Assembly: GCA_903915035.1 (NCBI GenBank)
Contig: CAIWRI010000002.1
Location: forward strand, 1-50,403
DNA: 50,403 bases
Direction: 5' to 3'
DNA from: an uncultured Nitrosomonadales bacterium
GTDB taxonomy: Bacteria > Pseudomonadota > Gammaproteobacteria > Burkholderiales > Gallionellaceae
Below the pieces are notes generated by a model that did not search any database, had not been told where the DNA came from, and worked only from the letters and a program-made list of their open reading frames with translations. Position 1 is the first letter of the stretch. Each line of letters opens with the position of its first letter. The position numbers were made by a program, and so were the translations under genes. Positions 2,039 through 23,792 of the stretch are shown piece by piece.

Positions 2039-2812
2039 ATGACTTACTGCCTTGCCATCAATGCGGAAACTGGCTTTGTGCTCTGTTCTGACTCGCGCAC
2101 CAACGCCGGCTTTGATAACATTTCGACTTATTCAAAGATGCATACTTTCGCCTGGCCGGGCAACAGAGTGTTCGCGCTGCTGGCATCAGGCAATCTGGCC
2201 ACCACACAATTAGTGGTAAAACGTCTGCATGCGGATCTTGCCAGTGGAGCCAGCCCTAATTTGCTCAGCGTCAACAACATGCATGAAGCGGTAGATTATG
2301 TCGCGACGGTCAGCAGTCACGTACAAAATATGCATGTAGTGAGAGATGGCGGAAAGGTCAATTTTGAGGCTACTTTTATTCTGGCAGGGCAAATAGGATC
2401 AGATCGCCATGAAACACTGATGATCTATCCGCAAGGAAATTATATACACGAGTCCAGTGAACACCCGTATTTGCAAATCGGCGAAATTAAATACGGCAAA
2501 CCGATTCTGGACCGGGTGATCAAGCGGGATATATTGCTCGAACGCGCCGCCCGTTGCGCCTTGGTGTCGATGAATTCGACCGTGCGCAGCAACCTGACCG
2601 TAGCACCACCGATTGAATTGCTGGTTTACCGCAAAGACAGTCTGTGTATTACACACAAGCTCAGCCTGGCTGAAAATGATGACTTTGCCAGACAGCTGTC
2701 CGAAGTCTGGAATCAAGGTCTGGTCACGGCCTTACAAAATCTGCCGAAATTTGACTGGGAACTTTCAGACGCAGCGGTTGTTACTGATAACGCGCTCAAA
2801 TCAGCAAAATAA
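2039..2812 (+). CDS. Anbu-type bacterial proteasome homologue, copy 1
   Basis: A 257-residue protein of the proteasome-like Ntn-hydrolase family known as Anbu (COG3484). After removal of the initiator Met the chain begins Thr-Tyr-Cys, giving the Thr nucleophile. The conserved stretch SDSRTNAG supplies Asp17 of the mature chain, and TYSKMH supplies Lys32. Further family blocks are SGNLA and QIGEIKYGKPILDRVIK. Known Anbu proteins assemble into open helical or lock-washer rings, and their peptidase substrate is not settled. The ATP-grasp and alpha-E genes downstream are the usual Anbu partners. It lies 234 bp upstream of the ATP-grasp gene, separated by two hairpins, so it may be transcribed partly on its own. 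A clear paralogue lies at 5486-6235. Catalytic residues are intact in both. Confidence 0.88.
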   Translation: MTYCLAINAETGFVLCSDSRTNAGFDNISTYSKMHTFAWPGNRVFALLASGNLATTQLVVKRLHADLASGASPNLLSVNNMHEAVDYVATVSSHVQNMHVVRDGGKVNFEATFILAGQIGSDRHETLMIYPQGNYIHESSEHPYLQIGEIKYGKPILDRVIKRDILLERAARCALVSMNSTVRSNLTVAPPIELLVYRKDSLCITHKLSLAENDDFARQLSEVWNQGLVTALQNLPKFDWELSDAAVVTDNALKSAK

Positions 2813-2863
2813 CCGCCTTTTGAGCGGTTCATCATTAAGCTCAGCGCGTGTTGAGCTTAATGA
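2811..2863 (+). terminator. tandem hairpins after Anbu copy 1
   Basis: Two perfect inverted repeats follow the stop codon: AACCGC/GCGGTT (2811-2829, 7-base loop, overlapping the stop codon) and TCATTAAGCTCA/TGAGCTTAATGA (2832-2863, 8-base loop). Neither has a strong T-tract, so they may be a weak terminator, an mRNA 3'-stabiliser, or (the second, a 12-bp perfect arm) a protein-binding operator for the genes downstream. Confidence 0.45.
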
Positions 2864-3046
2864 ATCCGGCAACCAACCAGTCAGGGTTAAAAGCATGCAC
2901 TAATTTGGGGCTTTATGCACCAGCAAAGCGCCCAACCAGCAGTCCATTCGCAATGATTATTCACAACACCTTGATTATAAAACCACATTAATATGGCATG
3001 AATTATGCTATCTTGTAAGTAGGCTTAAATCAATTGACGGAAGTGA

Positions 3047-4480
3047 ATGATGAAAATTGCTTATGATGAAATGTATGCACCGGATGGCTCGGTGCGTAAG
3101 AATTACCAGGAATATTCAAAATGGCTCCAGGCCATGCCGGCTGATGTGATCGCACGCAAACGCGAAGCCGCAGATGTCGCGTTCCATCGTGCCGGGATTA
3201 CTTTTGCCGTTTATGGCGAAGCTGAAAGCCAGGAGCGACTGATCCCGTTTGATATTGTACCGCGCATCATTCCAGCACATGAATGGACTCGCCTTGAGTC
3301 GGGACTGCGCCAGCGCGTCAAAGCGCTGAATGCTTTCTTGCACGATATTTATCACGATCAGGAAATTATCAAGTCAGGCCGCATCCCCGCTCAGCAAATT
3401 CTCGGCAATAGCCAGTTTCGCCACGAAATGGTCGGCGTAGATGTGCCTGAACAGATTTACGCGCATATTGCCGGTGTCGACCTGGTACGTGCCGACCATG
3501 GCAAGCAACTCGGTGAGTATTATGTGCTCGAAGACAATTTGCGCACGCCGTCAGGCGTCTCTTACATGCTGGAAAATCGCAAGATGATGATGCGATTGTT
3601 TCCTGATTTGTTCACCCGTCAAAAGATTGCGCCTGTTGAACATTATCCGGATATGTTGCTCAACAGTCTGCGCTCGGTCGCACCCAAAGGCGTCACCAAC
3701 CCAAACGTGGTTGTGCTGACACCGGGTCAGTACAACAGCGCCTATTTTGAGCATGCCTTCCTGGCTCAGCAGATGGGCGTCGAACTGGTAGACGGCCTTG
3801 ACCTGTTTGTCTTGAATGAAATCGTCTATATGCGCACCACCGAGGGACCGCTGCGCGTGGATGTGATTTATCGTCGGATCGACGATGATTTCCTCGATCC
3901 GAAAGCGTTTCGCCCTGACTCCATGCTGGGCGTAGCGGGCTTGTTCTCAGCTTACCGGGCGGGCAATGTCACGCTGGCAAATGCTGTCGGTACAGGCATT
4001 GCCGATGACAAGGCAATTTATGTACATGTGCCGGAAATGATCCGCTTTTATTGCGGTGAAGAACCGATTTTATCCAACGTACCGACCTGGGAGTTGAGTA
4101 AAGCAGATGATCTGAAGTATGTACTGGCAAATCTGGCTGAACTGGTCGTCAAGGAAGTCCATGGCTCGGGCGGATACGGCATGCTGGTAGGCCCTACCGC
4201 GAGCCGTGATGAAATCAGTTTGTTCCGCGAAAAAATCATCAGCAATCCGGCAGGCTATATCGCCCAACCTACCCTTGCTCTCTCAACCTGCCCTACCTTT
4301 GTCGACAGCGGCGTAGCGCCGCGCCACATTGATCTGCGTCCCTACGTGCTGTCAGGCAAGGAAGTCACTATGGTGCCGGGCGGCCTGACCCGCGTGGCAT
4401 TAAAAGAAGGCTCTCTGGTGGTTAATTCATCACAGGGCGGTGGCACCAAAGACACCTGGATACTGGAAGGAGGAATGTAA
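3047..4480 (+). CDS. circularly permuted ATP-grasp type 2 protein
   Basis: A 477-residue protein of the circularly permuted ATP-grasp family found with Anbu (COG2308). These are predicted ATP-dependent ligases that form amide bonds, perhaps in making or tagging a peptide; no substrate is established. Recognisable blocks are the N-terminal YDEMYAPDGSVRKNYQEY, the central YYVLEDNLRTPSGVSYMLENR, the VVKEVHGSGGYGMLVGP segment (glycine-rich nucleotide loop) and the C-terminal RHIDLRPYVLSG. Two ATGs lie in tandem at 3047 and 3050. The stop is followed one base later by the alpha-E gene, and an AGGAGG inside the last codons serves that next gene, so the two are translationally coupled. Confidence 0.87.
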   Translation: MMKIAYDEMYAPDGSVRKNYQEYSKWLQAMPADVIARKREAADVAFHRAGITFAVYGEAESQERLIPFDIVPRIIPAHEWTRLESGLRQRVKALNAFLHDIYHDQEIIKSGRIPAQQILGNSQFRHEMVGVDVPEQIYAHIAGVDLVRADHGKQLGEYYVLEDNLRTPSGVSYMLENRKMMMRLFPDLFTRQKIAPVEHYPDMLLNSLRSVAPKGVTNPNVVVLTPGQYNSAYFEHAFLAQQMGVELVDGLDLFVLNEIVYMRTTEGPLRVDVIYRRIDDDFLDPKAFRPDSMLGVAGLFSAYRAGNVTLANAVGTGIADDKAIYVHVPEMIRFYCGEEPILSNVPTWELSKADDLKYVLANLAELVVKEVHGSGGYGMLVGPTASRDEISLFREKIISNPAGYIAQPTLALSTCPTFVDSGVAPRHIDLRPYVLSGKEVTMVPGGLTRVALKEGSLVVNSSQGGGTKDTWILEGGM

Positions 4481-4481
4481 T

Positions 4482-5474
4482 ATGCTTTCATCAACCGCAG
4501 AACACCTCTACTGGATGGCGCGCAGCATGGAGCGCGCTGAAAATACCGCACGCATGCTGGATGTAACCTATCGCATGTCTTTACTCAAGCAATCCTCGCT
4601 GGAAGCACATCACGAATGGCGCGCCATGCTGTCTATCAGCGGCCTGCACGAAGATTTCGAAGCGCGTTATGAAGTTCCTGATTCAGCCCATGTATTGCAT
4701 TTCATGGCGCTGGACGAAAAAAATCCGGGCAGCATCTATAACAGTATTTTCACCGCTCGCGAAAATGCCCGTGCGGTGCGCGGCTCGATCACGTCAGAAA
4801 TGTGGGAAGCGCTCAATGCGACCTGGCTGGAAATGCGCCGGATAAAAAATGAAGGGATCGAAGCGGACGGCATTTCCCGCTTCTTTGACTGGGTAAAAGA
4901 ACGTTCACATCTCTCGCGTGGCATCGCCCATGGCACCATGTTACGCGACAACTCCTTCCGCTTCATCCGGCTGGGGAGCTTTCTGGAACGGGCTGACAAT
5001 ACCGCGCGTATCCTGGATGTGAAATATCATATTCTGTTACCCAGCCTGAGAGACATCGGCGGTGCGGCTGACTATTACCAGTGGAGCGCCTTGCTGCGCT
5101 CAGTGTCGGCATTTGAAGCTTATCGCAAGGTTTATCGTGATCAGATCACGCCCAAGCGGGTCACTGAATTACTGATACTCAGACCCGACATGGCCAGATC
5201 GCTGGTTACCTGCATGAATGAGGTAAACCGTTTGCTGCATGAGATAGACGGTCCGCGCGCGACCGAATTGATCGGGCAATGCGCTTTGCTGCGCAGCAAG
5301 TTGCACAACGACAAGATCGATAATATCTTCCAGTATGGTTTACATGAATATATCTCCGAGTTTCTGGAAAAAATTTATGATCTGGGCAATCTGGTCAACA
5401 CGACCTTCTTCTGGCCGGCAGATGAATTGAAAGCAGCGGATACCGTGTCCAGCCAAAAGCAACTAAGTTACTAA
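4482..5474 (+). CDS. alpha-E domain protein
   Basis: A 330-residue, almost entirely helical protein of the alpha-E family (COG2307), the constant partner of type-2 ATP-grasp proteins in Anbu clusters. The diagnostic repeat is seen twice: SMERAENTARMLDV near the N-terminus and FLERADNTARILDV near the middle. The start is at MLSSTAEHLYW, with AGGAGG eight bases upstream; an in-frame ATG at 4440 lies inside the ATP-grasp gene and lacks this site. The biochemical role is unknown; it is assumed to work with the ATP-grasp ligase. The second Anbu gene follows after 11 bases. Confidence 0.87.
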   Translation: MLSSTAEHLYWMARSMERAENTARMLDVTYRMSLLKQSSLEAHHEWRAMLSISGLHEDFEARYEVPDSAHVLHFMALDEKNPGSIYNSIFTARENARAVRGSITSEMWEALNATWLEMRRIKNEGIEADGISRFFDWVKERSHLSRGIAHGTMLRDNSFRFIRLGSFLERADNTARILDVKYHILLPSLRDIGGAADYYQWSALLRSVSAFEAYRKVYRDQITPKRVTELLILRPDMARSLVTCMNEVNRLLHEIDGPRATELIGQCALLRSKLHNDKIDNIFQYGLHEYISEFLEKIYDLGNLVNTTFFWPADELKAADTVSSQKQLSY

Positions 5475-5485
5475 AGAAGCGCCCT

Positions 5486-6235
5486 ATGACTTATTGCGTT
5501 GCAACCATGATTGATGCCGGCATTGTTTTTGCATCGGATTCACGCACCAATGCCGGCGTGGACAATATTGCCACTTATCGCAAGATGAGAGTGTTTGAGC
5601 GTCCTGGTGAGCGGATACTGGTGATCATCAATTCGGGCAATCTGGCGATTACCCAGGCCACCCTCAATGATCTTGAACAGGCAATCCGGCACAATAACGA
5701 AATCCATCTGATGAATGTCGCGTCCATGTATGAAGCGGCTGAACTGATAGGCAGTGCGTTGCGTCAGGTGCGTCATCGGGACGGTCCTTATCTGGCTGAA
5801 AACCGGGTGGATTGCAGCGCTAATTTCATTATCGGCGGGCAGATCGCTGGGGAGCAGCAGCGGCTTTTCCTGGTCTATCCTGAAGGTAATTTCATTGAGG
5901 CAACGCCCGATACGCCCTATTTTCAGATCGGCGAAGTCAAATACGGCAAACCTATTATTGATCGTGTCATCAAACCTGACACCTGTATGGATGACGCCAT
6001 CAAGTGCATCCTGGTGTCCTTCGATTCAACCATGAGATCCAACCTGTCGGTGGGCATGCCGATTGATCTGGTTTGCTATAACCGGGACAGCTTGCAAGCA
6101 GGTCTCGTGCATCGTTTTGACGAACAAGATAATTATATGCAACAACTCAGAGCCAGCTGGAACGAAGGCGTGCGACGCGCCTTTGCACAGCTGCCCAATT
6201 TTAAGCCGGAATCGCAACAGAAAGGTTACCCATGA
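5486..6235 (+). CDS. Anbu-type bacterial proteasome homologue, copy 2
   Basis: A 249-residue paralogue of the Anbu gene at 2039-2812. It keeps the Thr-Tyr-Cys N-terminus, SDSRTNAG (Asp17), TYRKMR (Lys32), SGNLA and QIGEVKYGKPIIDRVIK, so it should be an active Ntn-hydrolase. It differs from copy 1 mainly in surface helices (for example residues 60-110) and at the C-terminus. It is 11 bases downstream of the alpha-E gene and overlaps the next gene by four bases (ATGA), so it sits firmly in the same operon. Whether the two Anbu chains form mixed or separate rings cannot be read from sequence. Confidence 0.88.
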   Translation: MTYCVATMIDAGIVFASDSRTNAGVDNIATYRKMRVFERPGERILVIINSGNLAITQATLNDLEQAIRHNNEIHLMNVASMYEAAELIGSALRQVRHRDGPYLAENRVDCSANFIIGGQIAGEQQRLFLVYPEGNFIEATPDTPYFQIGEVKYGKPIIDRVIKPDTCMDDAIKCILVSFDSTMRSNLSVGMPIDLVCYNRDSLQAGLVHRFDEQDNYMQQLRASWNEGVRRAFAQLPNFKPESQQKGYP

Positions 6236-9200
6236 CTATCCGCGTTGCACTAAATCATCAGACCAGCTACACCTTTGATCGTGCCGTCAAACTCTGGCCG
6301 CATGAGATACGTCTGCGTCCTGCCGCACATAGCCGTACCCCTATTCTCAGTTATTCGCTGAACATTGAGCCTGCCGGACATTTTCTGAACTGGCAGCAGG
6401 ATCCTTTCGGCAACTGGGTGGCGCGCCTGGTGTTTCCCGAAAAAGCCGGCTCGCTGAAAATCACCGTTGATCTGGTCGCCGATATGACCGTGATCAACCC
6501 TTTTGATTTCTTCATGGAAGAATTTGCCGAAACCTATCCGTTTGCCTATCCGGAAGGCTTGAAGCGCGAACTGTCTCCCTATCTGGAAGCGGATCCGCTC
6601 ACGCCGCTGCTGGCTGACTGGCTGGCTCGAACCCGCAGTGAACTGCTGGCAAAACCGCTGCGCACCATTGATATGCTGGTTGGCATCAATCAGCGGGTAA
6701 AAGACGATATCAATTATATCGTGCGCCTTGAAGTCGGCGTGCAGACACCCGAGCAAACGCTGGAACTGAAACTGGGTTCCTGCCGCGACTCGGCGTGGCT
6801 GCTGGTACAGGCGTTGCGCCATTTGGGACTGGCGGCGCGCTTTGCTTCCGGTTATCTGATCCAGCTCAAAGCGGATGTCAAGGCACTGGATGATGGTCCT
6901 TCCGGCACTGAATACGATTTCACCGATTTGCATGCCTGGACTGAAGTTTACATTCCCGGCGCGGGCTGGATCGGGCTGGACCCGACTTCCGGCCTGCTGG
7001 CAGGCGAAGGACATATCCCGCTCGCCTGCACGGCAATGCCCTCTTCCGCTGCGCCTGTCATCGGCGGCACGGAAGTGTGCGAAAGCCATTTTGATTTTGC
7101 CATGTCTGTGACCCGCATTCACGAAGATCCGCGGGTGACTCAGCCGTACACCGAAGCACAGTGGCAGGCGATACTGGATTTGGGCTATCAGGTCGATAAC
7201 GAACTGGAAAAACAGGACGTGCGCCTGACCATGGGCGGCGAGCCTACTTTTGTCTCTGTCGATGACATGGAGGGAGATGAATGGAATTTCACCGCCTTGT
7301 CGGATGCGAAACGCGAGCTGTCGGGCGAGTTGCTGGTGCGTTTGCAAGGCCATTTTGCACCGGGTGCCTTGCTGCATTTCGGTCAGGGAAAATGGTATCC
7401 CGGCGAGCCCCTGCCGCGATGGGCGCTGGGCTGTTACTGGCGCGTTGACGGCAAACCGCTGTGGCACGATCGCAAGCTGCTGGTTACCGGCAATAAAACA
7501 GGCACGCAGAAAACCGCTGATGCACAGCATTTTATCAGCAGGCTGACAGAGGAATTGAAACTGGATGCCGGCTTGGTCATTACCGCTTACGAGGATGTCA
7601 CAAAAATCATCAATGAAGAGCTGCGCTGGCCGGACAACCTTGATCCGCTCACCGCTGACCTTAAAAAATCCGACGAACGTCGTCGTCTGGCAAAGCTGAT
7701 CGAAGCAGGCTTAGGCGAGCCTGTAGGCTACGTGCTGCCGCTGAAAGCACTGCCGCCCGAGCAGACTCAAGCCGCCGGCAAAGCGCTTATTTCAGCAGGA
7801 TTTTACTCCAGCCTCTGGCCGCTACGCCGTGAACACCTGTATCTGATCGGCGGTGACTCGCCGCTCGGACTGCGCCTGCCCCTGGCTTCCCTGCCCTGGC
7901 TGGCGGATGAAGACAGAGAAGAAGAGTTTGGCCGCGATCCCTTCGATGCCACCAGCGAAGCACCTGATCGTCAGACTGACCACGACAGAGCCCCTCTCCA
8001 CACGCCTCCCCCGCAGGCAGGGGAGGAGGTAAACGATTTGCTACGCAAGACTAACGACTCTTACGATCCGCGTGAAATTGTGCACACGGCCCTCTGTGCC
8101 GAGGTACGTGACGGCGTGTTATGCATCTTTTTGCCGCCGGTGCCCAAACTGGAAGACTTCGTCACGCTGATCAACGCCATTGAAACCGCAGCCGCCGCAT
8201 TGAAACTGCCCTTGCGTCTGGAAGGCTATACCCCGCCCTCAGATCCACGCGTCAAGGAATTCCGCATCACACCGGATCCGGGAGTCATTGAGGTCAATAT
8301 CCATCCGTCCGGCAGCTGGCAACAACTGGTCGAAAACACGCATATTCTCTATGAGGAAGCCAGACTTGCCCGACTGTGTGCCGAGAAATTCATGATGGAC
8401 GGGCGGCATACCGGCACCGGCGGCGGCAATCACGTCACGCTGGGCGCGGCTACTCCGGCAGATTCACCCTGCTTGCGGCGCCCGGATGTGCTGATGAGTC
8501 TGATCACCTTCTGGCAGCATCATCCTGCGTTGTCCTATCTGTTCTCCGGCATGTTTATCGGGCCGACCAGTCAGGCGCCGCGCGTCGATGAAGCGCGACA
8601 TGAAAGCCTGTATGAGCTTGAGATTGCCTTTCAGCAAATGGCAGAACATCTCAAACCCGGTGCGGAGAACAAGCAACCTTGGCTGGTGGATCGGCTGTTG
8701 CGCAATCTGCTGGTCGATCTGTCGGGCAATACGCACCGTGCAGAGTTCTGTATCGACAAGCTATATTCACCCGACAGCGCCACAGGCCGACTGGGTCTGG
8801 TTGAATTTCGCGGCTTTGAAATGCCGCCGCATGCGCAGATGTCGCTGCTGCAAATGCTGTTGTTGCGCGCCCTGGTGGTGCGCTTCTGGCAAAAGCCGTA
8901 TCAGGGCAATCTCAACCGCTGGGGAACCGAGTTGCATGATCGCTACATGCTGCCGCATTTCGTGGCACAGGACATGAAAGATGTGGTGCAGGATCTGCAG
9001 CGTGCAGGCTATGCCTTTGAATTCGAATGGTTCGCACCTTTCCTGGAATTCCGCTTCCCGCGCTTTGGCACGGTCGCCTATCACGGTATCGAAATCGAAC
9101 TGCGTCAGGCCATCGAACCCTGGCATGTGCTGGGCGAAGAAGTCGCTGCGGGTGCGACGGCACGCTATGTCGATTCCTCGCTGGAACGCATGCAGATCAA

Positions 9201-9651
9201 GGTGCGCAACATGAATGACAACCGGCATATTGTCACCTGTAACGGTCGTCCGCTGCCGCTGACCAGCACCGGCACACGCGGCGAATACATTGCTGCGGTG
9301 CGTTATCGCGCCTGGGCACCGCCGTCCGGTCTGCACCCGACCATAGGCGTACAGGCACCGCTGGTATTCGATCTGGTGGACAGTTGGAGCGGGCGCTCGA
9401 TCGGCGGTTGTACTTATCATGTCGCCCATCCGGGCGGGCGCAATTACGACACCTTCCCGGTCAACGCCAATGAAGCCGAGGCCAGACGTGTGGCGCGTTT
9501 CTGGAATCACGGACATACGCCGGGCCTGATGCATGTACGTCGTGAAGGGCGCAATCCGGATTATCCGCTGACGCTGGATTTACGCCGCGCACCTGAACCG
9601 ATGATGGAAGGCGTAGCGGATGTACCGAGTGAAATGATGCAGCAACAGTAA
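6232..9651 (+). CDS. transglutaminase-like / DUF2126 protein
   Basis: A very large (1139-residue) protein and the last gene of the Anbu operon. Residues about 1-290 are a transglutaminase-like domain: bacterial N-terminal beta region, then the catalytic Cys in LELKLGSCRDSAWLLVQAL, His in DLHAWTEVY and Asp in WIGLDPTSGL. From about residue 320 it is DUF2126 (RLTMGGEPTFVS, NHVTLGAATP, VEFRGFEMPPHAQMSLLQML). The family is routinely encoded next to alpha-E/ATP-grasp genes; a thiol protease or amide-forming role is inferred, not shown. Residues about 583-606 contain a low-complexity linker (APLHTPPPQAGEE) that is the translation of a palindromic DNA repeat and is probably not ancestral. It overlaps Anbu copy 2 by four bases. 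A bidirectional terminator follows. Confidence 0.85.
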   Translation: MTIRVALNHQTSYTFDRAVKLWPHEIRLRPAAHSRTPILSYSLNIEPAGHFLNWQQDPFGNWVARLVFPEKAGSLKITVDLVADMTVINPFDFFMEEFAETYPFAYPEGLKRELSPYLEADPLTPLLADWLARTRSELLAKPLRTIDMLVGINQRVKDDINYIVRLEVGVQTPEQTLELKLGSCRDSAWLLVQALRHLGLAARFASGYLIQLKADVKALDDGPSGTEYDFTDLHAWTEVYIPGAGWIGLDPTSGLLAGEGHIPLACTAMPSSAAPVIGGTEVCESHFDFAMSVTRIHEDPRVTQPYTEAQWQAILDLGYQVDNELEKQDVRLTMGGEPTFVSVDDMEGDEWNFTALSDAKRELSGELLVRLQGHFAPGALLHFGQGKWYPGEPLPRWALGCYWRVDGKPLWHDRKLLVTGNKTGTQKTADAQHFISRLTEELKLDAGLVITAYEDVTKIINEELRWPDNLDPLTADLKKSDERRRLAKLIEAGLGEPVGYVLPLKALPPEQTQAAGKALISAGFYSSLWPLRREHLYLIGGDSPLGLRLPLASLPWLADEDREEEFGRDPFDATSEAPDRQTDHDRAPLHTPPPQAGEEVNDLLRKTNDSYDPREIVHTALCAEVRDGVLCIFLPPVPKLEDFVTLINAIETAAAALKLPLRLEGYTPPSDPRVKEFRITPDPGVIEVNIHPSGSWQQLVENTHILYEEARLARLCAEKFMMDGRHTGTGGGNHVTLGAATPADSPCLRRPDVLMSLITFWQHHPALSYLFSGMFIGPTSQAPRVDEARHESLYELEIAFQQMAEHLKPGAENKQPWLVDRLLRNLLVDLSGNTHRAEFCIDKLYSPDSATGRLGLVEFRGFEMPPHAQMSLLQMLLLRALVVRFWQKPYQGNLNRWGTELHDRYMLPHFVAQDMKDVVQDLQRAGYAFEFEWFAPFLEFRFPRFGTVAYHGIEIELRQAIEPWHVLGEEVAAGATARYVDSSLERMQIKVRNMNDNRHIVTCNGRPLPLTSTGTRGEYIAAVRYRAWAPPSGLHPTIGVQAPLVFDLVDSWSGRSIGGCTYHVAHPGGRNYDTFPVNANEAEARRVARFWNHGHTPGLMHVRREGRNPDYPLTLDLRRAPEPMMEGVADVPSEMMQQQ
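7991..8030 (+). repeat. REP-like palindromic element inside a coding region
   Basis: The stretch contains CCTCCCC (8005-8011) and GGGGAGG (8020-8026) around CGCAGGCA, preceded by CCCCTCTCC. This pattern resembles dispersed intergenic palindromes of many proteobacteria. It is read in frame as PLHTPPPQAGEE within an interdomain linker of the DUF2126 protein. A related CCCTCTCCC/GAGGGCGAGGG element lies at 18209-18243. Confidence 0.55.
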
Positions 9652-12923: not shown

Positions 12924-14339
12924 TTAGATGCTGTAGTACATTTCAAACTCAACAGGATGAGTGGTCATGCGCAGGCGCGTGACTTCGTCCATCTTCAACG
13001 TGATGTATGCGTCGATGAAGTCATTGGAAAATACGCCGCCACGGGTCAGGAATTCGCGGTCTTTATCCAGTGCATTCAACGCTTCGTCAAGTGACGTACA
13101 TACCGTTGGAATCAATGCATCTTCTTCAGGCGGCAAGTCGTACAGATTCTTGTCAGCCGGGTCGCCAGGGTGAATCTTGTTGGCGATACCATCTAAGCCT
13201 GCCATCATCAGTGCGGCAAAGCACAAGTAAGGGTTGGCTGTCGGGTCCGGGAAACGGGTTTCAATACGGCGTGCCTTGTCGCTGGCGACGTGAGGAATAC
13301 GAATTGACGCAGAACGATTTTTGGCAGAATAAGCAAGCTTAGTCGGTGCTTCGTAATGAGGAACCAGACGCTTGTAGGAGTTGGTGCCCGGATTGGTAAT
13401 CGCGTTCAGTGCCTTGGCATGCTTGATGATACCGCCAATGTAATACAGCGCGGTGTCAGACAGACCGGCATAACCATTGCCTGCAAACAGATTCTTGCCG
13501 TCTTTCCAGATAGACTGGTGCACATGCATGCCGGAACCGTTGTCGCCAACGATAGGCTTGGGCATGAAAGTTGCTGTCTTGCCGTGTTGATGAGCCACAT
13601 TGTGCACAACATATTTCAGATATTGAGTCTGATCGGCGCGACGCACTAGCGTGTCGAACTTGGTACCGATTTCGCATTGACCGGCAGTCGCCACTTCGTG
13701 GTGATGCACTTCAACTTCGATGCCGATATCTTCCAGTGCCAGACACATCGCAGCGCGGATGTCATTCAGGCTGTCAACCGGAGGAACAGGGAAGTAACCG
13801 CCTTTAACGACTGGACGGTGACCGGTATTGCCCCCGTCATATTTTTCATCCGAGGACCAGGCCGCTTCTTCGGAATTGATTTTGACCGAACAGCCGGACA
13901 TATCAATTTTCCAGTTGACCGAGTCAAAGATGAAGAATTCCGGTTCAGGGCCGAAGTAAGCCGTGTCGCCCAGGCCGGAAGATTGCAGGTAAGCTTCAGC
14001 GCGCTTTGCGATAGAACGTGGATCGCGGTCATAGCCCTTGCCGTCGGTAGGTTCAATGACGTCGCAGGTAATGTTCAGCGTGACATCTTCAGTGAAAGGA
14101 TCAAGGTAGGCGGCGGAAGGATCCGGCATCAACAGCATGTCGGAAGCTTGAATACCTTTCCATCCTGCGATGGAAGAGCCATCAAATGCGTGACCTTCTT
14201 CAAACTTGTCCATACCAACATATTTGGCAGGAACCCCTACGTGCTGCTCCTTGCCCCGTGTATCAGTAAAACGAAAGTCCACGAATTTGACATCGTGGTC
14301 CTTAATCATTTGCAACACATCATTAGCGGTCTTCGCCAT
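12924..14339 (-). CDS. glnA: glutamine synthetase, type I
   Basis: A 471-residue enzyme that joins ammonia to glutamate at the cost of ATP, the entry point for nitrogen made by the nitrate pathway encoded at 21-32 kb. Family motifs are FDGSSIAGW, the ammonia/metal motif [20 protein letters not shown], the [10 protein letters not shown] loop and [20 protein letters not shown]. The adenylylation tyrosine lies in NLYDLPPEE, so activity should be under GlnE control. The start is MAKTAND, preceded by GGAGAGAG; an upstream in-frame ATG at 14360 lacks a ribosome site. The 257-bp upstream region has only an imperfect sigma-54-like match (minus strand, 14498-14513, TTGCA present but AG in place of the -24 GG). 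Confidence 0.96.
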
Positions 14340-14596
14340 AACTCTCTCCAAAATAATCAATCAAACAGTGAACTACTACCCGAAATATCCCAAGCAAAAA
14401 ACATGCCAATTCACCAAACAAGTCGTCGCGCGCATTATTAAGCGAGCGTTTTCTTCCTTTTCATTTTCTCCGCCAGCGGCGCAGAGGTGTTTGGGCTTGC
14501 AATGCGTGCGCTAAATCAATGTGCATTGTGCCATAAGCCGGCAAACTAACACAAATCGCACCTAAAAGGGGACGCACGCCAGAGCCGCACGCACTA

Positions 14597-15796
14597 TTAT
14601 AGGGCGTGATGAATTTGAATGGTGCGGAACAGCGGATCATTGAGCGCAAGCTGATTGCAGCGCACCTGTAAAGCTTTGGCGTCCAACTGCCCGCCGGGCG
14701 GCAGATAAAGTTCAGCATCAATATGACCATCCAGATAATGGAACACCACACGATAGCTGAGCAGTTGACTATCGCCAAGCCGCTCGGCTAGCTGTGCCAG
14801 CAAAACCGGCCGGTCAGGCAATTTAGCGTTATGTGCGATTTGCATATCGTCTTCCGGATCGATATGCACCATGACGTCGAGCACAGGATGCGCTTTGAGT
14901 ACCGCATGACGTGCCGTTTCGGCAATGTAATGTCCTTCAGATACGCTGATTCTGGGATCGACTAAGATATGCGCATCGACCAGGGCATTATCTGCCATTT
15001 TACGCGTGCGCAATTCATGCAGACCGAGCACGCCATGCGTTTTTAGCAAAGTGGCACGAATCGCTTCCACTTCTTCAGCATTAAGTCCGGTATCGATCAG
15101 TTCCGACAGCGCTTCGAGCGCCAGCTTACCGCCCATATGCGCAATCATTACCCCAACCACCGCTGCGGCGACCAGATCCAGAAAGGTATAGCCTAGCAAA
15201 TTGCCGATAATTCCGACCACCACCACCAAAGAGGATGCTGCGTCAGAACGCGCATGCCAGGCGTTTGCCACCAGCATCTGTGAGCGCACCCTGAGGGCGA
15301 CCGACAGCATGTAGCGAAACATGCCTTCTTTGGCAAGCAGTGCAAATATGGCAATAGCCAGTCCCAGCGGACTGACCGCGCTGAATGTCAGGGGATGCTG
15401 CAAGCGGATTGCGGCAGCCACCAGCAAACCCACCCCCAGTGCGGCGAGAAAAACACCCAATATCAGCGTGGCGGCAGTCTCGATTCGGGCGTGGCCATAC
15501 GGATGATTGGCATCGGCATGACGATTGCCGTGCCGGTTGGCGAACAGCACCAGTAAATCGGCAATCAAATCTGACAGTGAATGCAATCCGTCGGCCATCA
15601 GTGCCTGTGAATGCGCAAATATTCCGCCACTAACCTGCAGCAGGGTTAGCAGTAAGTTGATGGCGATGCTTACCAGCGTACTTTTTTGTGCGGCGGCAAA
15701 GCGTTCCGGATTGGCGGGTTCAAATGTCGCTTTGTCAGTATGTGCAGGTTGTATGTGATTTTTCATTTCGATTGAGCTAGTATGCGTCTGTTGCAT
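14597..15796 (-). CDS. cation diffusion facilitator family transporter
   Basis: A 399-residue inner-membrane metal/proton antiporter of the CDF family, expected to export zinc, iron or a similar divalent ion. Six hydrophobic segments lie between residues about 40 and 225. The two metal-site motifs are HSLSD (His72, Asp76) and HARSD (His181, Asp185), and a histidine-rich loop (NRHGNRHADANHPYGHAR) lies between. After the usual cytoplasmic dimerisation domain it carries about 90 extra residues, making it longer than FieF (300). The start at 15796 has no strong ribosome site; Met11 is an alternative. Metal choice cannot be read from sequence. It is divergent from the rhodanese gene. Confidence 0.85.
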   Translation of the reverse strand: MQQTHTSSIEMKNHIQPAHTDKATFEPANPERFAAAQKSTLVSIAINLLLTLLQVSGGIFAHSQALMADGLHSLSDLIADLLVLFANRHGNRHADANHPYGHARIETAATLILGVFLAALGVGLLVAAAIRLQHPLTFSAVSPLGLAIAIFALLAKEGMFRYMLSVALRVRSQMLVANAWHARSDAASSLVVVVGIIGNLLGYTFLDLVAAAVVGVMIAHMGGKLALEALSELIDTGLNAEEVEAIRATLLKTHGVLGLHELRTRKMADNALVDAHILVDPRISVSEGHYIAETARHAVLKAHPVLDVMVHIDPEDDMQIAHNAKLPDRPVLLAQLAERLGDSQLLSYRVVFHYLDGHIDAELYLPPGGQLDAKALQVRCNQLALNDPLFRTIQIHHAL

Positions 15797-15841
15797 GCAG
15801 CATAGCGCATGATTCGTTAAACTGGAACTGGAAAAAAGACC

Positions 15842-16294
15842 ATGGGAAAAATTACCTCTATTTTGCTAACTGCGCAACAACGTGCAAAAGACAAAAAACT
15901 GCCTTATGAGGGGGCGTTATATCCGGACGAGGCTTACGAACTTCTTCAGTCCGCGCCCGGCGCAAAACTGGTTGATGTGCGCTGCCGTGCAGAGCTGGAC
16001 TGGATCGGGCGTATTCCCGATGCGGTAGAGATTGAATGGTTAACTTATCCCGGCATGAAAGCCAATCCGAATTTCAATGCGGAACTGTTGCAGCAGATTG
16101 ATAAGGAAGCGCTGGTGCTGTTTATTTGCCGCAGTGGCGCACGTTCGCATGCGGCGGCGGTGGCTGCTACCCAGGCCGGCTTTCGCGATTGTTACAATGT
16201 ACTGGAAGGTTTTGAGGGTGACAAGGATGGTCGCGGGCATCGCAGCAGCAGTCAAGGCTGGCGTGTGGCCGGCTTGCCTTGGGTGCAAAGTTGA
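15842..16294 (+). CDS. rhodanese-like sulfurtransferase
   Basis: A 150-residue single-domain rhodanese. The active-site loop is ICRSGARSH with Cys96 as the persulfide carrier, and the domain starts with ALYPDEAYELLQ and KLVDVRCRAELDWIGRI. No signal peptide is seen, so it should be cytosolic. The sulfur acceptor is unknown. It sits between a CDF gene on the other strand and an ABC permease 134 bp downstream, with no clear functional link. Confidence 0.85.
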   Translation: MGKITSILLTAQQRAKDKKLPYEGALYPDEAYELLQSAPGAKLVDVRCRAELDWIGRIPDAVEIEWLTYPGMKANPNFNAELLQQIDKEALVLFICRSGARSHAAAVAATQAGFRDCYNVLEGFEGDKDGRGHRSSSQGWRVAGLPWVQS

Positions 16295-16428
16295 TCGTGG
16301 TTTATTCGGTCGGACAAACACCTTGCCGGCTTTCGCATCTGTTGAGATATTAAAACTGTAACATTTCGCAGGCATAATCATGTTTGCGTGACTTCCGATT
16401 TTCCAAGATAGTAAAGTACAACTCACAG

Positions 16429-18159
16429 ATGAGTGAATATAAGCAATTTTTCCCAAGGCAGGTCGTTGATTCAAGATGGAATCGCTGGGACTGGGCATTG
16501 TTGCCCATGGTGCTGGCTATCCTGGTATTGTTAGCTTACGGCGGCGAGCAGATGGCGAAGCCCTTTCAACTGGGCGAAACACTACCGCTTTCGCTGGCGC
16601 CAATAAACTTACCCTATTATCTGTTACGCACCACTTTGCGCATGTTTATCGCGCTGGGTGCATCAATCGGGTTCAGTTGTGTATTCGCCGTGCTGGCAAC
16701 CAAATACCGCGCTGCTGAGAAGGTTTTGTTGCCGATGCTGGATATCCTCCAGTCGATACCGATACTGGGATTTTTGTCCATCACCGTGACCGCGTTTATT
16801 GCCTTGTTTCCGGGCAGTCTGCTCGGCGTTGAATGCGCGGCAATTTTTGCAATCTTTACCTCTCAGGCCTGGAATATGGCTTTTAGCGCCTATCAGGGCT
16901 TCAGGACAGTCCCTGCTGAGTTGAAAGAAGCGGCGCGGGTGTTCAAACTTTCCGGCTGGCAGCAATTCTGGCGGCTGGAACTGCCCTTTGCCACGCCGGG
17001 TCTGCTGTGGAATATGATGATGTCAATGTCAGGCGGCTGGTTCTTTGTCGTCGCTTCTGAAGCCATTTCCGTATCCAATCAGAATATCAAGCTGCCCGGT
17101 ATCGGTTCGTATATTGCCATGGCCATCGAGCAGAAGGACTTGCATGCCATTGCCTGGGCTATCTGCGCGATGCTGGTCGGAGTGATTCTCTACGACCAGT
17201 TGTTTTTCAGGCCACTGTTAGCCTGGGCGGACAAATTCCGTTTTGAAGAGTCAGGCAGCGAAACGGCACAGGAATCCTGGTTGCTCGACTGGTTGCATAA
17301 AACCGAACGCACGCAAGGCATCGTTACCGCATTTGCCAGACTGCTTGAACGTTCATTCGTCTTATTCAGGCTCAGTTTTGACGGAACATCAATCAAGGCG
17401 CGACCTCTGGCGGCTTCAAACGCGCCGCAACGCATCTGGGATGCGGTGATTGCTGCGGTGGTTTTCTATTCCTTGTGGACCTTGTTTCATTTTATCCATG
17501 CCGAGGTCAGCTGGAGCGAGGTCGGACACGTGTTTGTGCTGGGGTTTTACACCATGCTTCGTGTTGTTGTGCTGATTTTTCTGGCCGCCCTGATCTGGAT
17601 TCCGGTTGGCGTGTGGATAGGTTTGAATCCGCGTATAGCAGGAAGGGCACAAGCCGTTATACAGTTCCTGGCGGCCTTCCCGGCCAATCTGATGTTTCCC
17701 GTGGCTGTGTTCCTGCTGGTCAGATACCGCCTCAATCCGGATATATGGCTCTCCCCGCTGATGATCCTGGGCACCCAGTGGTACATCCTGTTTAATGTGA
17801 TCGCGGGTGCCTCTACCATTCCGACAGAATTACGCTATGCCGCACAGAATATGGGGCTGACCGGATTGCTGAAATGGCGGCGTTATCTGCTGCCGGCAAT
17901 TTTTCCCAGTTTCGTCACCGGCGCCATTACTGCCTCAGGCGGGTCATGGAATGCCAGTATCGTGGCCGAATATGTCACCTGGGGAAATACCACCGTTTCG
18001 GCGCACGGCATCGGCAGCTATATCGCCGAGATGACCGCGCACGGTGATTTTCCCAGAATTGCCTTGGGGATAGGTGTGATGTGTGTGTTTGTGCTTGGCT
18101 TTAATAACTTCGTCTGGCGACGTATGTATGCCATGGCTGAAAATCGTCTGCATTTTTAA
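16429..18159 (+). CDS. NitT/TauT-type ABC transporter permease, double length
   Basis: A 576-residue inner-membrane protein made of two fused permease domains. Each half has about five to six hydrophobic segments and an EAA-like loop: RTVPAELKEAARVFKLSGWQ in the first, and TIPTELRYAAQNMGLTGLLKW in the second. Permeases of the nitrate/sulfonate/bicarbonate group are usually single-length dimers; here both halves are on one chain. I chose the ATG of MSEYKQFF; an upstream in-frame TTG at 16384 would add 15 residues. The partner ATPase follows after a 123-bp spacer rich in inverted repeats. No binding-protein gene is adjacent, and the substrate is unknown. Confidence 0.82.
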   Translation: MSEYKQFFPRQVVDSRWNRWDWALLPMVLAILVLLAYGGEQMAKPFQLGETLPLSLAPINLPYYLLRTTLRMFIALGASIGFSCVFAVLATKYRAAEKVLLPMLDILQSIPILGFLSITVTAFIALFPGSLLGVECAAIFAIFTSQAWNMAFSAYQGFRTVPAELKEAARVFKLSGWQQFWRLELPFATPGLLWNMMMSMSGGWFFVVASEAISVSNQNIKLPGIGSYIAMAIEQKDLHAIAWAICAMLVGVILYDQLFFRPLLAWADKFRFEESGSETAQESWLLDWLHKTERTQGIVTAFARLLERSFVLFRLSFDGTSIKARPLAASNAPQRIWDAVIAAVVFYSLWTLFHFIHAEVSWSEVGHVFVLGFYTMLRVVVLIFLAALIWIPVGVWIGLNPRIAGRAQAVIQFLAAFPANLMFPVAVFLLVRYRLNPDIWLSPLMILGTQWYILFNVIAGASTIPTELRYAAQNMGLTGLLKWRRYLLPAIFPSFVTGAITASGGSWNASIVAEYVTWGNTTVSAHGIGSYIAEMTAHGDFPRIALGIGVMCVFVLGFNNFVWRRMYAMAENRLHF

Positions 18160-18243
18160 CGGGCATGGCAGTAGCCACCCCAAATAATTAAACTTGCCAT
18201 GCCCGTTCTCCCTCTCCCAAACCCTCTCACGGAGGGCGAGGGA
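18160..18243 (+). repeat. compound palindromic spacer between permease and ATPase genes
   Basis: Directly after the permease stop codon lie CGGGCATGGCA (18160-18170) and TGCCATGCCCG (18195-18205), a perfect 11-bp inverted repeat with a 24-base spacer. It is followed at once by a REP-like palindrome, TCCCTC...GAGGGA with inner CCCTC/GAGGG (18209-18243). Such structures between genes of one operon often protect the 5' mRNA or lower expression of the downstream gene. Confidence 0.6.
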
Positions 18244-18282
18244 TCAAACGATCGCTTCGCGAGTTTTACGCTAAGGAAAATA

Positions 18283-19593
18283 ATGAACGCGCCTATCGTC
18301 GAACTAAAGTCTGTCGGAAAATCATTTCGTTCAGCGGATGGAACCGCCCGCTCGGTGCTGGAAAATGTCGATTTTTCCCTGCGGGAAGGGGAAATCGTGG
18401 CCTTGCTGGGCAAGTCCGGTTCGGGAAAATCCACCATGCTGCGCATTATGGCAGGACTGATTTCTGCCGATGAGGGGCAAGTGCATTACCGCGGCTTGCC
18501 GCTGTACGGACCGGCTGATGGCATCAGCATGGTGTTTCAGTCCTTTGCGCTGTTCCCCTGGCTGACGGTACAAAAAAACGTCGAACTGGGGCTGGAAGCA
18601 AAAGGCATGCTGCCCGATGAGCGGGCGATCAAAGCCAAGGCTGCCATTGAACTGATAGGCCTGTCAGGTTTTGAAGGCGCATTACCGCGAGAATTGTCAG
18701 GCGGCATGCGTCAACGTGTCGGGATTGCCCGTGCGCTGGTGATGGAACCTGAAGTGTTACTGATGGATGAGGCTTTCTCAGCCCTTGATGTACTGACCGG
18801 CGAGCGTCTGCGCGAAGATATTCTGGAACTTTGGGAGTCAGGGCGACTGCCGACTAAAGCCATCCTGGTGGTATCGCATAATATTGAAGAAGCGGTGATG
18901 ATGGCCGACCGCGTGCTGGTTTTTGCCAGCGATCCGGGACGTGTGCGCGATGAATTAGCCGTAAAACTGACGCGCCCCAGAGAAGTAGAGGGTTCGGAAG
19001 TGCGCGGACTGATTGATAAGGTTTACGGCTTAATGACGGCGGGTAGTATGCGTGCAGGGCGCGGGGCTGACAAGGGTGTCAAGCTGGGCTTAGGCGACCG
19101 GTTGCCGGAAGTGGGCATTTCCAGCATGGAAGGCGCGCTGGAAATTCTGGCTGAAGAACCCTATCTTGGCCGGGCTGACTTGCCCAAGCTCGCCGAAGAC
19201 ACCGAACTAAATGACCATGAACTGCTCGATGTTGCCAGCGCGCTGACTTTGCTGGGTTTCGCGCAGTTGGAGCAGGGCGATATCATGCTGACCGAACTGG
19301 GTTCACGCTATGCGCTGGCGGATCAGGCTGAACGGAAAGCAATCTTCGGGCAACAATTGCAAAATAATGTGCCTTTGATCGCATATATCCGCCATGGTCT
19401 GGTGCAGGATCCTTCCGGTGATCTGCATGAGGACCTGTTTCTCAAGTTGCTGCATTTCACCCTGAGTGAGACGGATGCACTGGCCGTGTTGCGTGTGGCA
19501 GTTGAATGGGGGCGCTATGGCGAGCTTTTCGAATACGACTTCAATACCGGCATTCTCAATATGCCTGCCAGTGAGGAAGTGGATATTACGTAG
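18283..19593 (+). CDS. NitT/TauT-type ABC ATPase with C-terminal AAA-associated domain
   Basis: A 436-residue ATPase partner of the double permease. Residues 1 to about 250 are the nucleotide-binding domain: Walker [10 protein letters not shown] (43-51), Q-loop [12 protein letters not shown], signature LSGGMRQR, Walker B VLLMDEAF and the switch His in VVSHNIEEA. Residues about 290-430 form the C-terminal domain seen in a subgroup of these ATPases (AAA-associated, PF09821 type), thought to be regulatory. The start at MNAPIVELK has AAGGAAA just upstream; an earlier in-frame ATG at 18199 lies inside the inverted repeats and is unlikely. Confidence 0.85.
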
Positions 19594-19598
19594 TCGCA

Positions 19599-19621
19599 TC
19601 AGCTTCAGCTTCAGCTTCAGC
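19599..19621. repeat. CAGCTT tandem repeat
   Basis: Three and a half perfect copies of the hexamer CAGCTT begin six bases after the stop codon of the ABC ATPase. The tract is short and outside coding sequence. Confidence 0.6.
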
Positions 19622-20032
19622 AAATATTTTCGCCACAAGGCCGGTGGCTGGTTACTTTGGCTGTGTCCAAGTATGTTTTTAAGGATGAGCCCTGACTGCA
19701 TTGTCTTTTTCCGCCAAAAAAGCAGCGGCGACCGGCCAAGCCGCCTGTTGCGGGTTTAGTTCCGCCATTTCACATTCATCACGCGTACCATCCGCAGCTT
19801 AAATGCCGCTGGTCTGCGCAATAAATCGCCTGTTCCTGAATGAGCCTGCCCATCTTCACCGCTGCCGGCTCTACTTGCCGCAGGCAAGGGCAAACCATCT
19901 ATCTTCGACGGCGTACAGAGGGGTGATACGCGAGAAGTATTACAACAAGAAAGCGGCCTCCAGGTTTTATGGCGAGTAGGTAATATCAGTTAGAGAGTGA
20001 CTTTAAACCCCGCACAACTACAAATTTCAGGT
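19622..20032. other. intergenic region after the ABC module
   Basis: No convincing gene is visible on either strand. A weak hairpin (GCCAC/GTGGC, 19632-19648) could help end the ABC transcript. A leftward frame across about 19750-19930 shows no recognisable motif. Confidence 0.4.
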
Positions 20033-20124
20033 AAAAAAAAGGCATCGTAAGATGCCTTTAAAACTGAAGTTAAGGGGGCTTCAGGAGGGAGAATGAGGTA
20101 AAAGTGCAGTTACTCACTAATATG
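20033..20124 (-). ncRNA. candidate leftward small RNA, about 90 nt
   Basis: A minus-strand promoter at 20131-20160 (TTGACT, 18 bases, TATAAT) points leftward, and 70-90 bases further lies a strong Rho-independent terminator: stem AAAGGCATC/GATGCCTTT, 4-base loop, then a run of eight T in all on the minus strand (20038-20059 plus tail to 20033). No start codon opens a frame between them. The RNA would contain a hairpin (CTGAAG/CTTCAG, 20064-20084) with a CCCCC-containing loop, and a single-stranded CUCCCUCCU tract complementary to ribosome binding sites, as in many trans-acting small RNAs. Expression is unproven. Confidence 0.5.
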
Positions 20125-20157
20125 TTAGGAATTATAATTGTTAACCTATTAGTGAGT
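20112..20157. promoter_or_regulatory. 46-bp palindromic operator upstream of the MarR gene
   Basis: ACTCACTAATA (20112-20122) and TATTAGTGAGT (20147-20157) are perfect inverted copies, and the exact centre is the palindrome AATTATAATT (20130-20139). The element overlaps promoters in both directions. This is the arrangement expected for autoregulation by the adjacent MarR-family protein. Confidence 0.65.
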
Positions 20158-20160
20158 CAA
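20131..20160 (-). promoter_or_regulatory. sigma-70 promoter for the candidate small RNA
   Basis: On the minus strand TTGACT (20160-20155) is followed after 18 bases by a perfect TATAAT (20136-20131). The predicted start is near 20124. Both hexamers lie within or at the edge of the 46-bp palindrome, so a bound MarR dimer would block it. Confidence 0.6.
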
Positions 20161-20170
20161 TAGGTATAAT
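20141..20170 (+). promoter_or_regulatory. probable rightward marR promoter
   Basis: TTAACC (20141-20146), an 18-base spacer and a perfect TATAAT (20165-20170) precede the regulator gene by about 60 bases. The -35 is weak (4 of 6) and falls in the right half of the operator. Confidence 0.45.
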
Positions 20171-20228
20171 AAAAAAATTAATATCAGCCGTATAGCTTAG
20201 TCACATAATTCTTGTAGTGGAGTGCCGC

Positions 20229-20684
20229 TTGAATAAACTAATTACTTACCCGAACCTTCCCCATCGGTTATTGAAATCCCGCGAGTGCCTGATGGGACAT
20301 TTCCGCCCCATATTGAACCACTTCGGTATAACTGATCAACAATGGCGGATATTGCGTGCGCTAGATGAGCACGGCCGGCTTGAGCCAAGAGAAATATGCG
20401 AGATGTGCCATTTTTCCAGTCCCAGCATGGCGGGAATGCTGGCACGCATGGAAGACATACAATTAATTATGCGCGGTCGTATACCAGGAGATCGGCGAAG
20501 AGTGTCAGTGTACTTGTCGCCGCAAGGTATAAAGCTATTGAGCCAAGTCGGCCCTTTGATTGACTTGCAATATTCTTATCTTGAGCAAGCTTGCGGGAGT
20601 AAGATGTTTGCAGACTTACTTACGACGCTCGAAGAGTTCATTGATCTGACAATGCGCCCCATCAAACATGTTGACCTGCCTTGA
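20229..20684 (+). CDS. MarR-family transcriptional regulator (HpaR-like)
   Basis: A roughly 151-residue winged-helix regulator. FRPILNHFGITDQQWRILRAL and GRLEPREICEMCHFSSPSMAGMLARMEDIQLIMRGRIPGDRRR (split by the wing) match the MarR fold and most resemble HpaR, the homoprotocatechuate pathway repressor, although no such pathway is nearby. I favour the TTG at 20229 with GGAG six bases upstream; a GTG at 20217 adds four residues but lacks a ribosome site. Its ligand is unknown. It lies between the candidate small RNA and the nitrate region, and the palindrome upstream is the obvious target. Confidence 0.8.
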   Translation: MNKLITYPNLPHRLLKSRECLMGHFRPILNHFGITDQQWRILRALDEHGRLEPREICEMCHFSSPSMAGMLARMEDIQLIMRGRIPGDRRRVSVYLSPQGIKLLSQVGPLIDLQYSYLEQACGSKMFADLLTTLEEFIDLTMRPIKHVDLP

Positions 20685-21177: not shown

Positions 21178-21193
21178 TGGCACGCGTATTGCT
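21178..21193 (+). promoter_or_regulatory. sigma-54 promoter of the nrt operon
   Basis: TGGCAC-GCGTA-TTGCT is a perfect match to the -24/-12 consensus TGGCAC-N5-TTGCW. The predicted start is near 21203, seven or so bases before the first leader hairpin. Confidence 0.85.
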
Positions 21194-21202
21194 TTATAGC
21201 TT

Positions 21203-21296: not shown

Positions 21297-21330
21297 ATTC
21301 CGGTTTCTTTGATATCAAGGAGTGCAAATC

Positions 21331-22734: not shown

Positions 22735-22742
22735 AAATGATG

Positions 22743-22760
22743 CCCCGGCCTGTGCCGGGG
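22743..22760 (+). terminator. intercistronic stem-loop nrtA-nrtB
   Basis: CCCCGGC and GCCGGGG enclose CTGT, a very stable 7-bp GC stem with no T-run. It probably protects the nrtA message from 3' decay, so that the binding protein is made in excess of the membrane parts, rather than ending transcription. Confidence 0.55.
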
Positions 22761-22782
22761 TGCAAATGACGAGGAAATGAAA

Positions 22783-23772: not shown

Positions 23773-23792
23773 GCGGAATACTCAGGAGAAAA

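Follow-up and report, generated by a model that had tools for sequence, protein, structure and literature searches.

Why does a single locus keep two genes for the proteasome-like protein Anbu? We address this question in a 50,403-nucleotide stretch of DNA (the window; contig CAIWRI010000002.1 of assembly GCA_903915035.1) from an uncultured relative of Gallionella, whose genome (3.16 Mb, 155 contigs, completeness 100) belongs to one genus with genome G069. The two genes, copy 1 and copy 2, bracket genes for an ATP-grasp and an alpha-E protein, and copy 2 is followed by a fused transglutaminase-DUF2126 gene. We suggest, with confidence slightly better than even, that the locus carries two anciently separate Anbu-1 proteins under two controls, with copy 2 in an operon serving nitrogen starvation and copy 1 expressed separately. 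The main new finding is regulatory: a sigma54-type site lies before the copy 2 operon, while a private promoter-like element lies before copy 1. The genes concerned are as follows.

2039 to 2812, + strand: Anbu copy 1, 257 amino acids, intact; clade A, a second deep Anbu lineage
3047 to 4480, + strand: circularly permuted ATP-grasp protein, 477 amino acids, canonical (C) type (PF14403/PF04174)
4482 to 5474, + strand: alpha-E protein, start ATG at 4482, C type (PF04168)
5486 to 6235, + strand: Anbu copy 2, 249 amino acids, intact; canonical Anbu-1 side of the tree, C clade
6232 to 9651, + strand: fused transglutaminase-like/DUF2126 amidoligase, one gene of 1139 amino acids
333 to 1724, - strand: soluble transhydrogenase-like gene sthA (NF003585, above cut-off), a divergent neighbour that forms the 5' border of the copy 1 unit

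Much of the layout proposed in the initial annotation of this DNA holds. Both Anbu genes are open, and both encode the catalytic set Thr1, Asp17 and Lys32, with the Thr directly after the start Met and thus no propeptide. Copy 2 is as tightly coupled as was claimed, starting 11 bases 3' of alpha-E and overlapping the next gene by 4 bases; the transglutaminase and DUF2126 partners are present, but as one gene. The statement that most clusters have one Anbu gene also fits our searches, which covered 158 genomes of the family (48 with an Anbu match) and 300 of the order (159 with a match). At least two matches were obtained in 20 of the 159 Anbu-bearing order genomes (19 without G349, which probably has one broken gene in pieces and is the one genome in which intactness was checked) and in 17 of the 48 Anbu-bearing family genomes (16 without Ferriphaselus sp. 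R-1, G012). In the latter genome, the second match is a fragment in broken pieces beside sthA (L082, 8797 to 9103), and a full-length Anbu gene lies on another contig.

Both copies are Anbu by sequence, as all five PDB matches of each at E <= 0.001 are Anbu chains. An AlphaFold model of copy 1 (predicted local distance difference test score, pLDDT, 92.9 with 52 input rows; 41 with nine similar rows) matches the Anbu structure 5loy best (E 7e-28), and ranks 1 to 31 are all Anbu entries. Identity as BPH or HslV is unsupported for either copy, since Anbu chains match first and the window genome has no HslV match. A genome search found no Anbu match beyond copies 1 and 2. None of the 158 family genomes passes the HslV cut-off. 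In 25 of them, open reading frames of 192-250 amino acids (for example, G154:C1:313557-313745) match weakly and only over the first 60-66 positions of the HslV model; these are perhaps BPH.

The case for two controls comes from the DNA upstream of each unit, where the candidate elements are:

2994 to 3009, + strand: sigma54 -24/-12 element TGGCATGAATTATGCT, 11 of 12 positions, before the ATP-grasp operon
2897 to 2911, + strand: NtrC-like site GCACTAATTTGGGGC, 9 of 10 positions
2917 to 2931, + strand: NtrC-like site GCACCAGCAAAGCGC, 9 of 10 positions, 20 bases from the site at 2897
1964 to 1995, + strand: private promoter-like element of copy 1, ATTTGCTG-N14-TGTTACTGTT, 44 bases 5' of the ATG

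Related loci carry either the window type of operon (C) or a second type (B), and the copy 1 type of Anbu is called A. Sigma54 matches of at least 10 of 12 positions lie within 300 bases upstream of all 15 C operons (28 of 300 shuffles) and all 24 B operons (43 of 480). The best site stands 29-44 bases before the start in 14 of the 15 C operons, and 62-77 bases before it in B operons, mostly with TCGC in the -12 half. Separate transglutaminase-DUF2126 genes have a match of at least 10 in four of nine cases (9 of 180 shuffles). The window genome encodes RpoN and NtrC, and nitrogen-assimilation genes adjoin the Anbu locus (window positions 12924-32400); the window holds glnA (TIGR00653, PF00120), nirB (TIGR02374) and, under tentative names, a nitrate-type ABC transporter and a NasA-like reductase. 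Its five sigma54 matches of 11 or 12 lie upstream of glnA, the transporter and the ATP-grasp gene and, in two cases, inside open frames (13560 and 26759), with the perfect 12 of 12 matches before glnA (14408-14393) and the transporter (21178-21193).

Upstream of copy 1, by comparison, the best sigma54 score in a scan is 7 of 12, and only one of 18 A genes has a match of at least 10 (32 of 360 shuffles), which is that of the Zetaproteobacterial locus L123 at -11, no place for a promoter. Instead, the region contains a -35-like TTGCTG (1966-1971), a 17-base spacer and an extended -10 of the form TG-n-TACTGT (hexamer 1989-1994). The consensus upstream of A genes is GTTTGCCG-N14-TG-n-TACTGTT with fixed spacing. 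In all 17 Gallionella, Sideroxydans and Ferrovum-like A loci, the box TGNTAMTGT lies 44-61 bases upstream of the start codon, a presence that is circular because the pattern was derived from these loci; the independent evidence for the element therefore consists of its uniqueness, its spacing, an unforced upstream box and random flanks. The alignment was anchored on the downstream box only, and TTGC nevertheless falls 16 bases before it in all 16 testable loci (the contig of L109 ends before that DNA). Across these 16 loci, identity is 100% inside the element and 25-26% outside it between genera, as expected of random flanks; the element is common to three families. The pattern TTGC-N16-TGNTAMTGTT has one match per genome in eight of eight genomes, always before an A gene, while the reversed pattern has one match in total, and the same element precedes A genes in two genomic contexts. 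A wider regulon was considered and rejected, as allowing up to three mismatches yields 80 matches over the eight genomes against 70 for the reversed control. The best reading of the element, from its sequence, is a sigma70-type promoter with an extended -10.

Could copy 1 simply be the first gene of the same operon, under shared control? The two units share a strand and are 234 bases apart, and a terminator scan found no + strand terminator between copy 1 and the ATP-grasp gene. The stretch does contain the two hairpins of the initial annotation as inverted repeats:

2811 to 2829, + strand: inverted repeat 1, at the end of copy 1, without a T-run on the + strand
2832 to 2863, + strand: inverted repeat 2, with a 12-bp perfect stem and an 8-base loop; a 40-base stretch folds at -20.1 kcal/mol

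The region has two terminator-like sites, both on the - strand, and shuffles yield about as many (1.7). Terminators after copy 1 are thus unsupported in the window, and among 14 loci folded, T-tailed hairpins occur only in L117 and L121. We nevertheless regard a shared operon as very improbable: conserved promoter-like elements precede each unit, the sigma54 and NtrC-like sites fall between copy 1 and the ATP-grasp gene, and in Sideroxydans the copy 1 element precedes an A gene located after another type of operon. The earlier suggestion of separate expression thus gains support at the level of sequence, from an element proper to copy 1 and a sigma54 site proper to the copy 2 operon.

Are the two copies products of a recent duplication? 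They are near each other, as a tandem duplication with one decaying copy would have them, and they are 42% identical over a 248-column alignment. We searched 84,980 species genomes, which gave 200 relatives, 80 of them kept, at 79 loci. The balance of clades in the resulting Anbu tree is no census, because 80 of 200 relatives were kept and the search patterns favour copy-1-like sequences. The tree has 136 rows (133 after merging duplicates, and three PDB rows), with eight short rows of 187 left out (fragments of L082, L104, L158 and L175). Copy 1 falls within a 103-row lineage (support 100/100) that excludes copy 2, the solved proteins of Pseudomonas, Yersinia and Hyphomicrobium and the remaining betaproteobacterial Anbu sampled. 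Within it, clade A (19 rows, support 100/98) comprises copy 1 and proteins of Gallionella and other metagenome-assembled genomes of Gallionellales, Sideroxydans, Ferrovum and two Zetaproteobacteria. Forcing clade A and the copy 2 clade together costs 112 log-likelihood units (approximately unbiased test, p-AU 1.6e-46; quick tree of 75 rows), in a comparison whose group was chosen after the tree had been inspected. A very recent tandem duplication, which the initial annotation had named as the case that would overturn its proposal, is rejected by this phylogeny together with the low identity and the separate deep clades; as both genes are also open and under purifying selection, we give it almost no weight. 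The pairing of the two copies arose either by transfer or by an old duplication followed by losses.

Two other observations concern Anbu in these genomes. Broken Anbu genes occur in two further genomes (L104, 1322-1923; L175, 8257-9749), one of them a Methylophilaceae metagenome-assembled genome. In four Gallionellaceae genomes (L049-L052), an Anbu-2-like protein, which shares about 30% identity with copy 1, is accompanied by an ATP-grasp and an alpha-E of its own; the S1 residues of this protein differ, and its Lys32 column reads Arg, which may be an alignment shift.

The partners of A-type Anbu vary. C sets, found in Gallionellaceae and Ferrovum-like genomes, have ATP-grasp proteins 82-89% and alpha-E proteins 75-83% identical to those of the window (more distant C-like sets at L045 and L048 have ATP-grasp proteins at 66-68%); in B sets the values are about 50% and 30%. 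A quick ATP-grasp tree splits B from C, mirroring the split of their Anbu proteins. A-type Anbu stands before the C set in the window, five other family genomes and three Ferrovum-like loci, after the B-type Anbu of the B set in eight family genomes, and after a transglutaminase-DUF2126 gene in two Zetaproteobacteria. In one of these (L122), a more distant ATP-grasp (54%) and alpha-E (39%) lie 0.9 kb downstream of the A-type Anbu; in the other (L123), neither gene was found within 18.7 kb of sequence. Since A-type Anbu occurs before the C operon, after the B operon or without either, it appears to move between partner sets.

Could the two copies instead co-assemble in mixed split rings, with copy 1 as an accessory subunit tuning specificity? 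All 14 A-bearing family genomes have a second Anbu, adjoining in the loci examined, and in both copies the alignment with solved Anbu includes the C-terminal helix by which the two layers pair. In the model of copy 1 this helix, H5, spans residues 215-233 (block pLDDT about 95), followed by a less certain helix at 239-256; in copy 2 it is assigned by sequence alignment to solved Anbu only. Yet the second Anbu is of C type in six of these genomes and of B type in eight, leaving no constant interface partner, and different promoters would give no fixed ratio of subunits. Beyond the family, one of the five A-bearing genomes has a C-type Anbu, and the other four (G450 and G451, Ferrovum; G452 and G453, Zetaproteobacteria) have no second Anbu match, A being their only Anbu-1-type match, with the proviso that many A-bearing genomes are draft or metagenome assemblies and that the contig of G450 ends 296 bases after alpha-E, so that the position of a C-type Anbu lies beyond the sequence. 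In G451 the C-type Anbu is missing from this place, because only 83 bases separate alpha-E from the transglutaminase gene. The notion that A never occurs alone is thus false, and the copy 2 type in turn occurs without A in family genomes. The mixed-subunit rings offered by the initial annotation are therefore unlikely in an obligate form, since A is the sole Anbu-1-type match in four genomes and the copy 2 type occurs without it; we consider co-assembly in general improbable.

The same variation could mean that there is no division of labour, and that copy 1 is a roaming gene that replaces a resident Anbu or is lost beside it. The Ferrovum locus of G451 (L151) keeps A-type Anbu with a C-type ATP-grasp and alpha-E but no C-type Anbu, Ferriphaselus R-1 retains only its fragment, modules are swapped, and clade A is patchy (14 of 158 family genomes). 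Because A occurs beside either set, and at L151 without a resident Anbu, it probably does not strictly require a matching partner, be it ATP-grasp, alpha-E or Anbu. In a quick DUF2126 tree, the two Zetaproteobacterial rows lie among Gallionellaceae rows (Shimodaira-Hasegawa-like approximate likelihood-ratio support 94 for the set and 98 for the pair), which suggests transfer between these groups. We hold a roaming gene without a role of its own to be unlikely, though less so than mixed rings: the low ratio of nonsynonymous to synonymous substitution rates (dN/dS) in both lineages, a private promoter conserved over three genera, the 14 of 14 pairs kept in the family and consistent residue differences all point to lasting separate roles.

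Other records bear on mobility as well. An Acidithiobacillus caldus plasmid (NZ_CP005987.1, 28226-28984) carries an Anbu gene whose product is 57% identical to copy 1, and the Anbu set of a verrucomicrobial metagenome-assembled genome (L153) closely resembles the one in Acidithiobacillus L152; both are signs of mobility. In total, 26 plasmid records match copy 1, all below 60% identity, and two phage records do so, both labelled Acinetobacter phage MD-2021a and longer than 230 kb; we doubt the label.

At the protein level, both lineages are under purifying selection, with a median dN/dS of 0.077 in A and 0.054 in C; dS could be estimated for 72 of 171 pairs in A and for 19 of 78 in C. Thr1, Asp17 and Lys32 are found in 19 of 19 clade A rows; in C rows, Thr1 is found in 12 of 13 (one has Ser1) and Asp17 and Lys32 in 13 of 13. 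At 58 positions, a residue at least 90% fixed in A is found in at most 10% of C rows. At the S1-pocket positions given for Pseudomonas Anbu (20, 30, 48, 52 and 55; PMC5666114), copy 1 reads T20-Y30-A48-L52-T55 and copy 2 T20-Y30-N48-L52-T55; both are of Anbu-1 type, without the basic residues of Anbu-2 given in the same paper. Positions 20, 52 and 55 are identical in A and C, and position 30 is Tyr in A and Phe (11 rows) or Tyr (two, including copy 2) in C. Position 48 is Ser (16) or Ala (three, including copy 1) in all 19 A rows and Asn in all 13 C rows, so that separate substrates for the two proteins, as first proposed, are plausible.

A loss of Asp166 to Asn in copy 1 was dropped as a candidate: position 178, Asn in clade A and Asp in copy 2, was first taken for the proteasome Asp166, which a profile alignment, itself weak, places near Asn184, an Asn in all A and C rows. 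Clade A also has a His/Glu-rich segment at residues 123-141 (H123, E124, H136, E137, H141) that copy 2 lacks, for which a metal or interface role is conceivable. In the residue counts, the group labelled 'gamma' includes one Methylophilaceae fragment.

We therefore return to two proteins under two controls. The proposal draws on two intact genes, deep divergence, conserved promoter-like sequences, purifying selection, module swapping and the presence of A as the sole detected Anbu-1 type in four genomes. In nitrogen shortage, NtrC would activate sigma54 RNA polymerase and switch on the operon of ATP-grasp, alpha-E, Anbu copy 2 and transglutaminase-DUF2126, of which copy 2 would be a regular member. 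Copy 1, from another deep lineage and without a partner set of its own lineage at the locus, would be transcribed alone from its sigma70-like extended -10 promoter and, for that reason, should be present while the operon is silent. Each copy most likely forms its own split-ring particle, presumably homomeric, with the N-terminal Thr as nucleophile and a somewhat different S1 pocket.

Besides the circularity and the choice of group mentioned above, several points weigh against this proposal. NtrC-like sites of at least 9 of 10 precede only seven of the 15 C operons (16 of 300 shuffles) and none of the 24 B operons (22 of 480), while six of the 18 A genes have them (10 of 360; L116-L121) without a sigma54 element, and in five of the six, which belong to B-set (Sideroxydans-type) loci, the site stands 168 to 182 bases upstream of the start; over its whole + strand, the window has nine such sites. 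These scores make the NtrC part of the argument weaker than that for sigma54. In one C operon (L041), the best sigma54 match lies outside the usual place. The box TGNTAMTGT is absent from both Zetaproteobacterial A loci. The hexamer TACTGT is a poor match to TATAAT, and a generic promoter scan does not list the copy 1 element. The upstream consensus GTTTGCCG, at 8 bases, exceeds the length of a -35 box. These features leave room for a special regulator or sigma factor. The S1-pocket differences are modest. The activity of either copy is unproven, as two structural studies report no peptidase activity or substrate for their Anbu proteins (PMC5666114, PMC6376114).

Gallionella, Sideroxydans, Ferrovum and the Zetaproteobacteria are lineages known for iron oxidation. 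We tentatively propose, as an idea that is somewhat unlikely as it stands, that such lineages share, partly by transfer, a specialised Anbu freed from nitrogen control. This protein would have its own conserved promoter or regulator site (except in Zetaproteobacteria), would fit either partner set and would do a standing job distinct from starvation, beside the nitrogen-induced Anbu or in its place. Our searches of an open-licence collection, which lacks most subscription journals, found no publication that describes an Anbu copy under a separate promoter or deals with Anbu in these iron oxidizers.

The genes at window positions 33956-49701 appear ordinary; they encode a peptidase S13, UbiD, two lipid A acyltransferases, S-adenosylmethionine synthetase, NnrS, S-adenosylhomocysteinase, a peptidase U32 and an APH-family kinase.

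The usual Anbu operon appears to be tied to nitrogen supply, which confounds guesses about the role of Anbu. This locus offers an Anbu apart from the nitrogen switch and from the ATP-grasp and alpha-E of its own lineage, beside different partner sets, and comparing the two copies could separate the functions of Anbu itself from those of the operon.

Anbu was named in 2008 (PMC5666114), and the idea of a make-and-break peptide or tag system, raised in the initial annotation, belongs to earlier literature (Iyer et al. 2009, as cited in PMC5666114 and PMC6376114). Two Anbu genes per genome are already known (PMC5666114, PMC6376114), as is nitrogen control of the ATP-grasp/alpha-E/Anbu operon type. 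In Burkholderia cenocepacia, I35_5080-83 (DUF404/407, DUF403 and two transglutaminase-domain proteins) belong to a common sigma54/NtrC set, in an account whose relevant passages do not name Anbu itself (PMC5491218). Pseudomonas putida PP_2685-2688 are described as likely controlled by NtrB/NtrC, with partners up 11- to 37-fold and the proteasome-like gene PP_2685 up 1.1- to 4.8-fold (PMC7801951), and a predicted sigma54 regulon includes COG3484, a proteasome-type protease (PMC12316311).

Compared with known systems, the locus shares its protein families with the Anbu-1 operon of Pseudomonas, Yersinia and Burkholderia relatives (Anbu, alpha-E, ATP-grasp and transglutaminase; structures 5LOX and 5NYW), and the sigma54/NtrC-type control suggested here fits B. 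cenocepacia I35_5080-83 and P. putida PP_2685-2688 (PMC5491218, PMC7801951). It differs from that operon in a further Anbu, of a different lineage and preceded by a promoter-like element of its own, and in the fusion of the transglutaminase to DUF2126. BPH and HslV belong to the same fold superfamily, but Anbu chains are the first sequence matches of both copies, and Anbu entries the first structural matches of copy 1. Cytophaga hutchinsonii, with its Anbu paralogues (PMC6376114), and Azospirillum brasilense, with Anbu-1 and Anbu-2 (PMC5666114), likewise have two Anbu genes in one genome. In contrast to the Azospirillum pair, both copies described here have an Anbu-1-like S1 pocket (Thr20, Tyr30, Leu52, Thr55) and differ in lineage, in residue 48 and in promoter.

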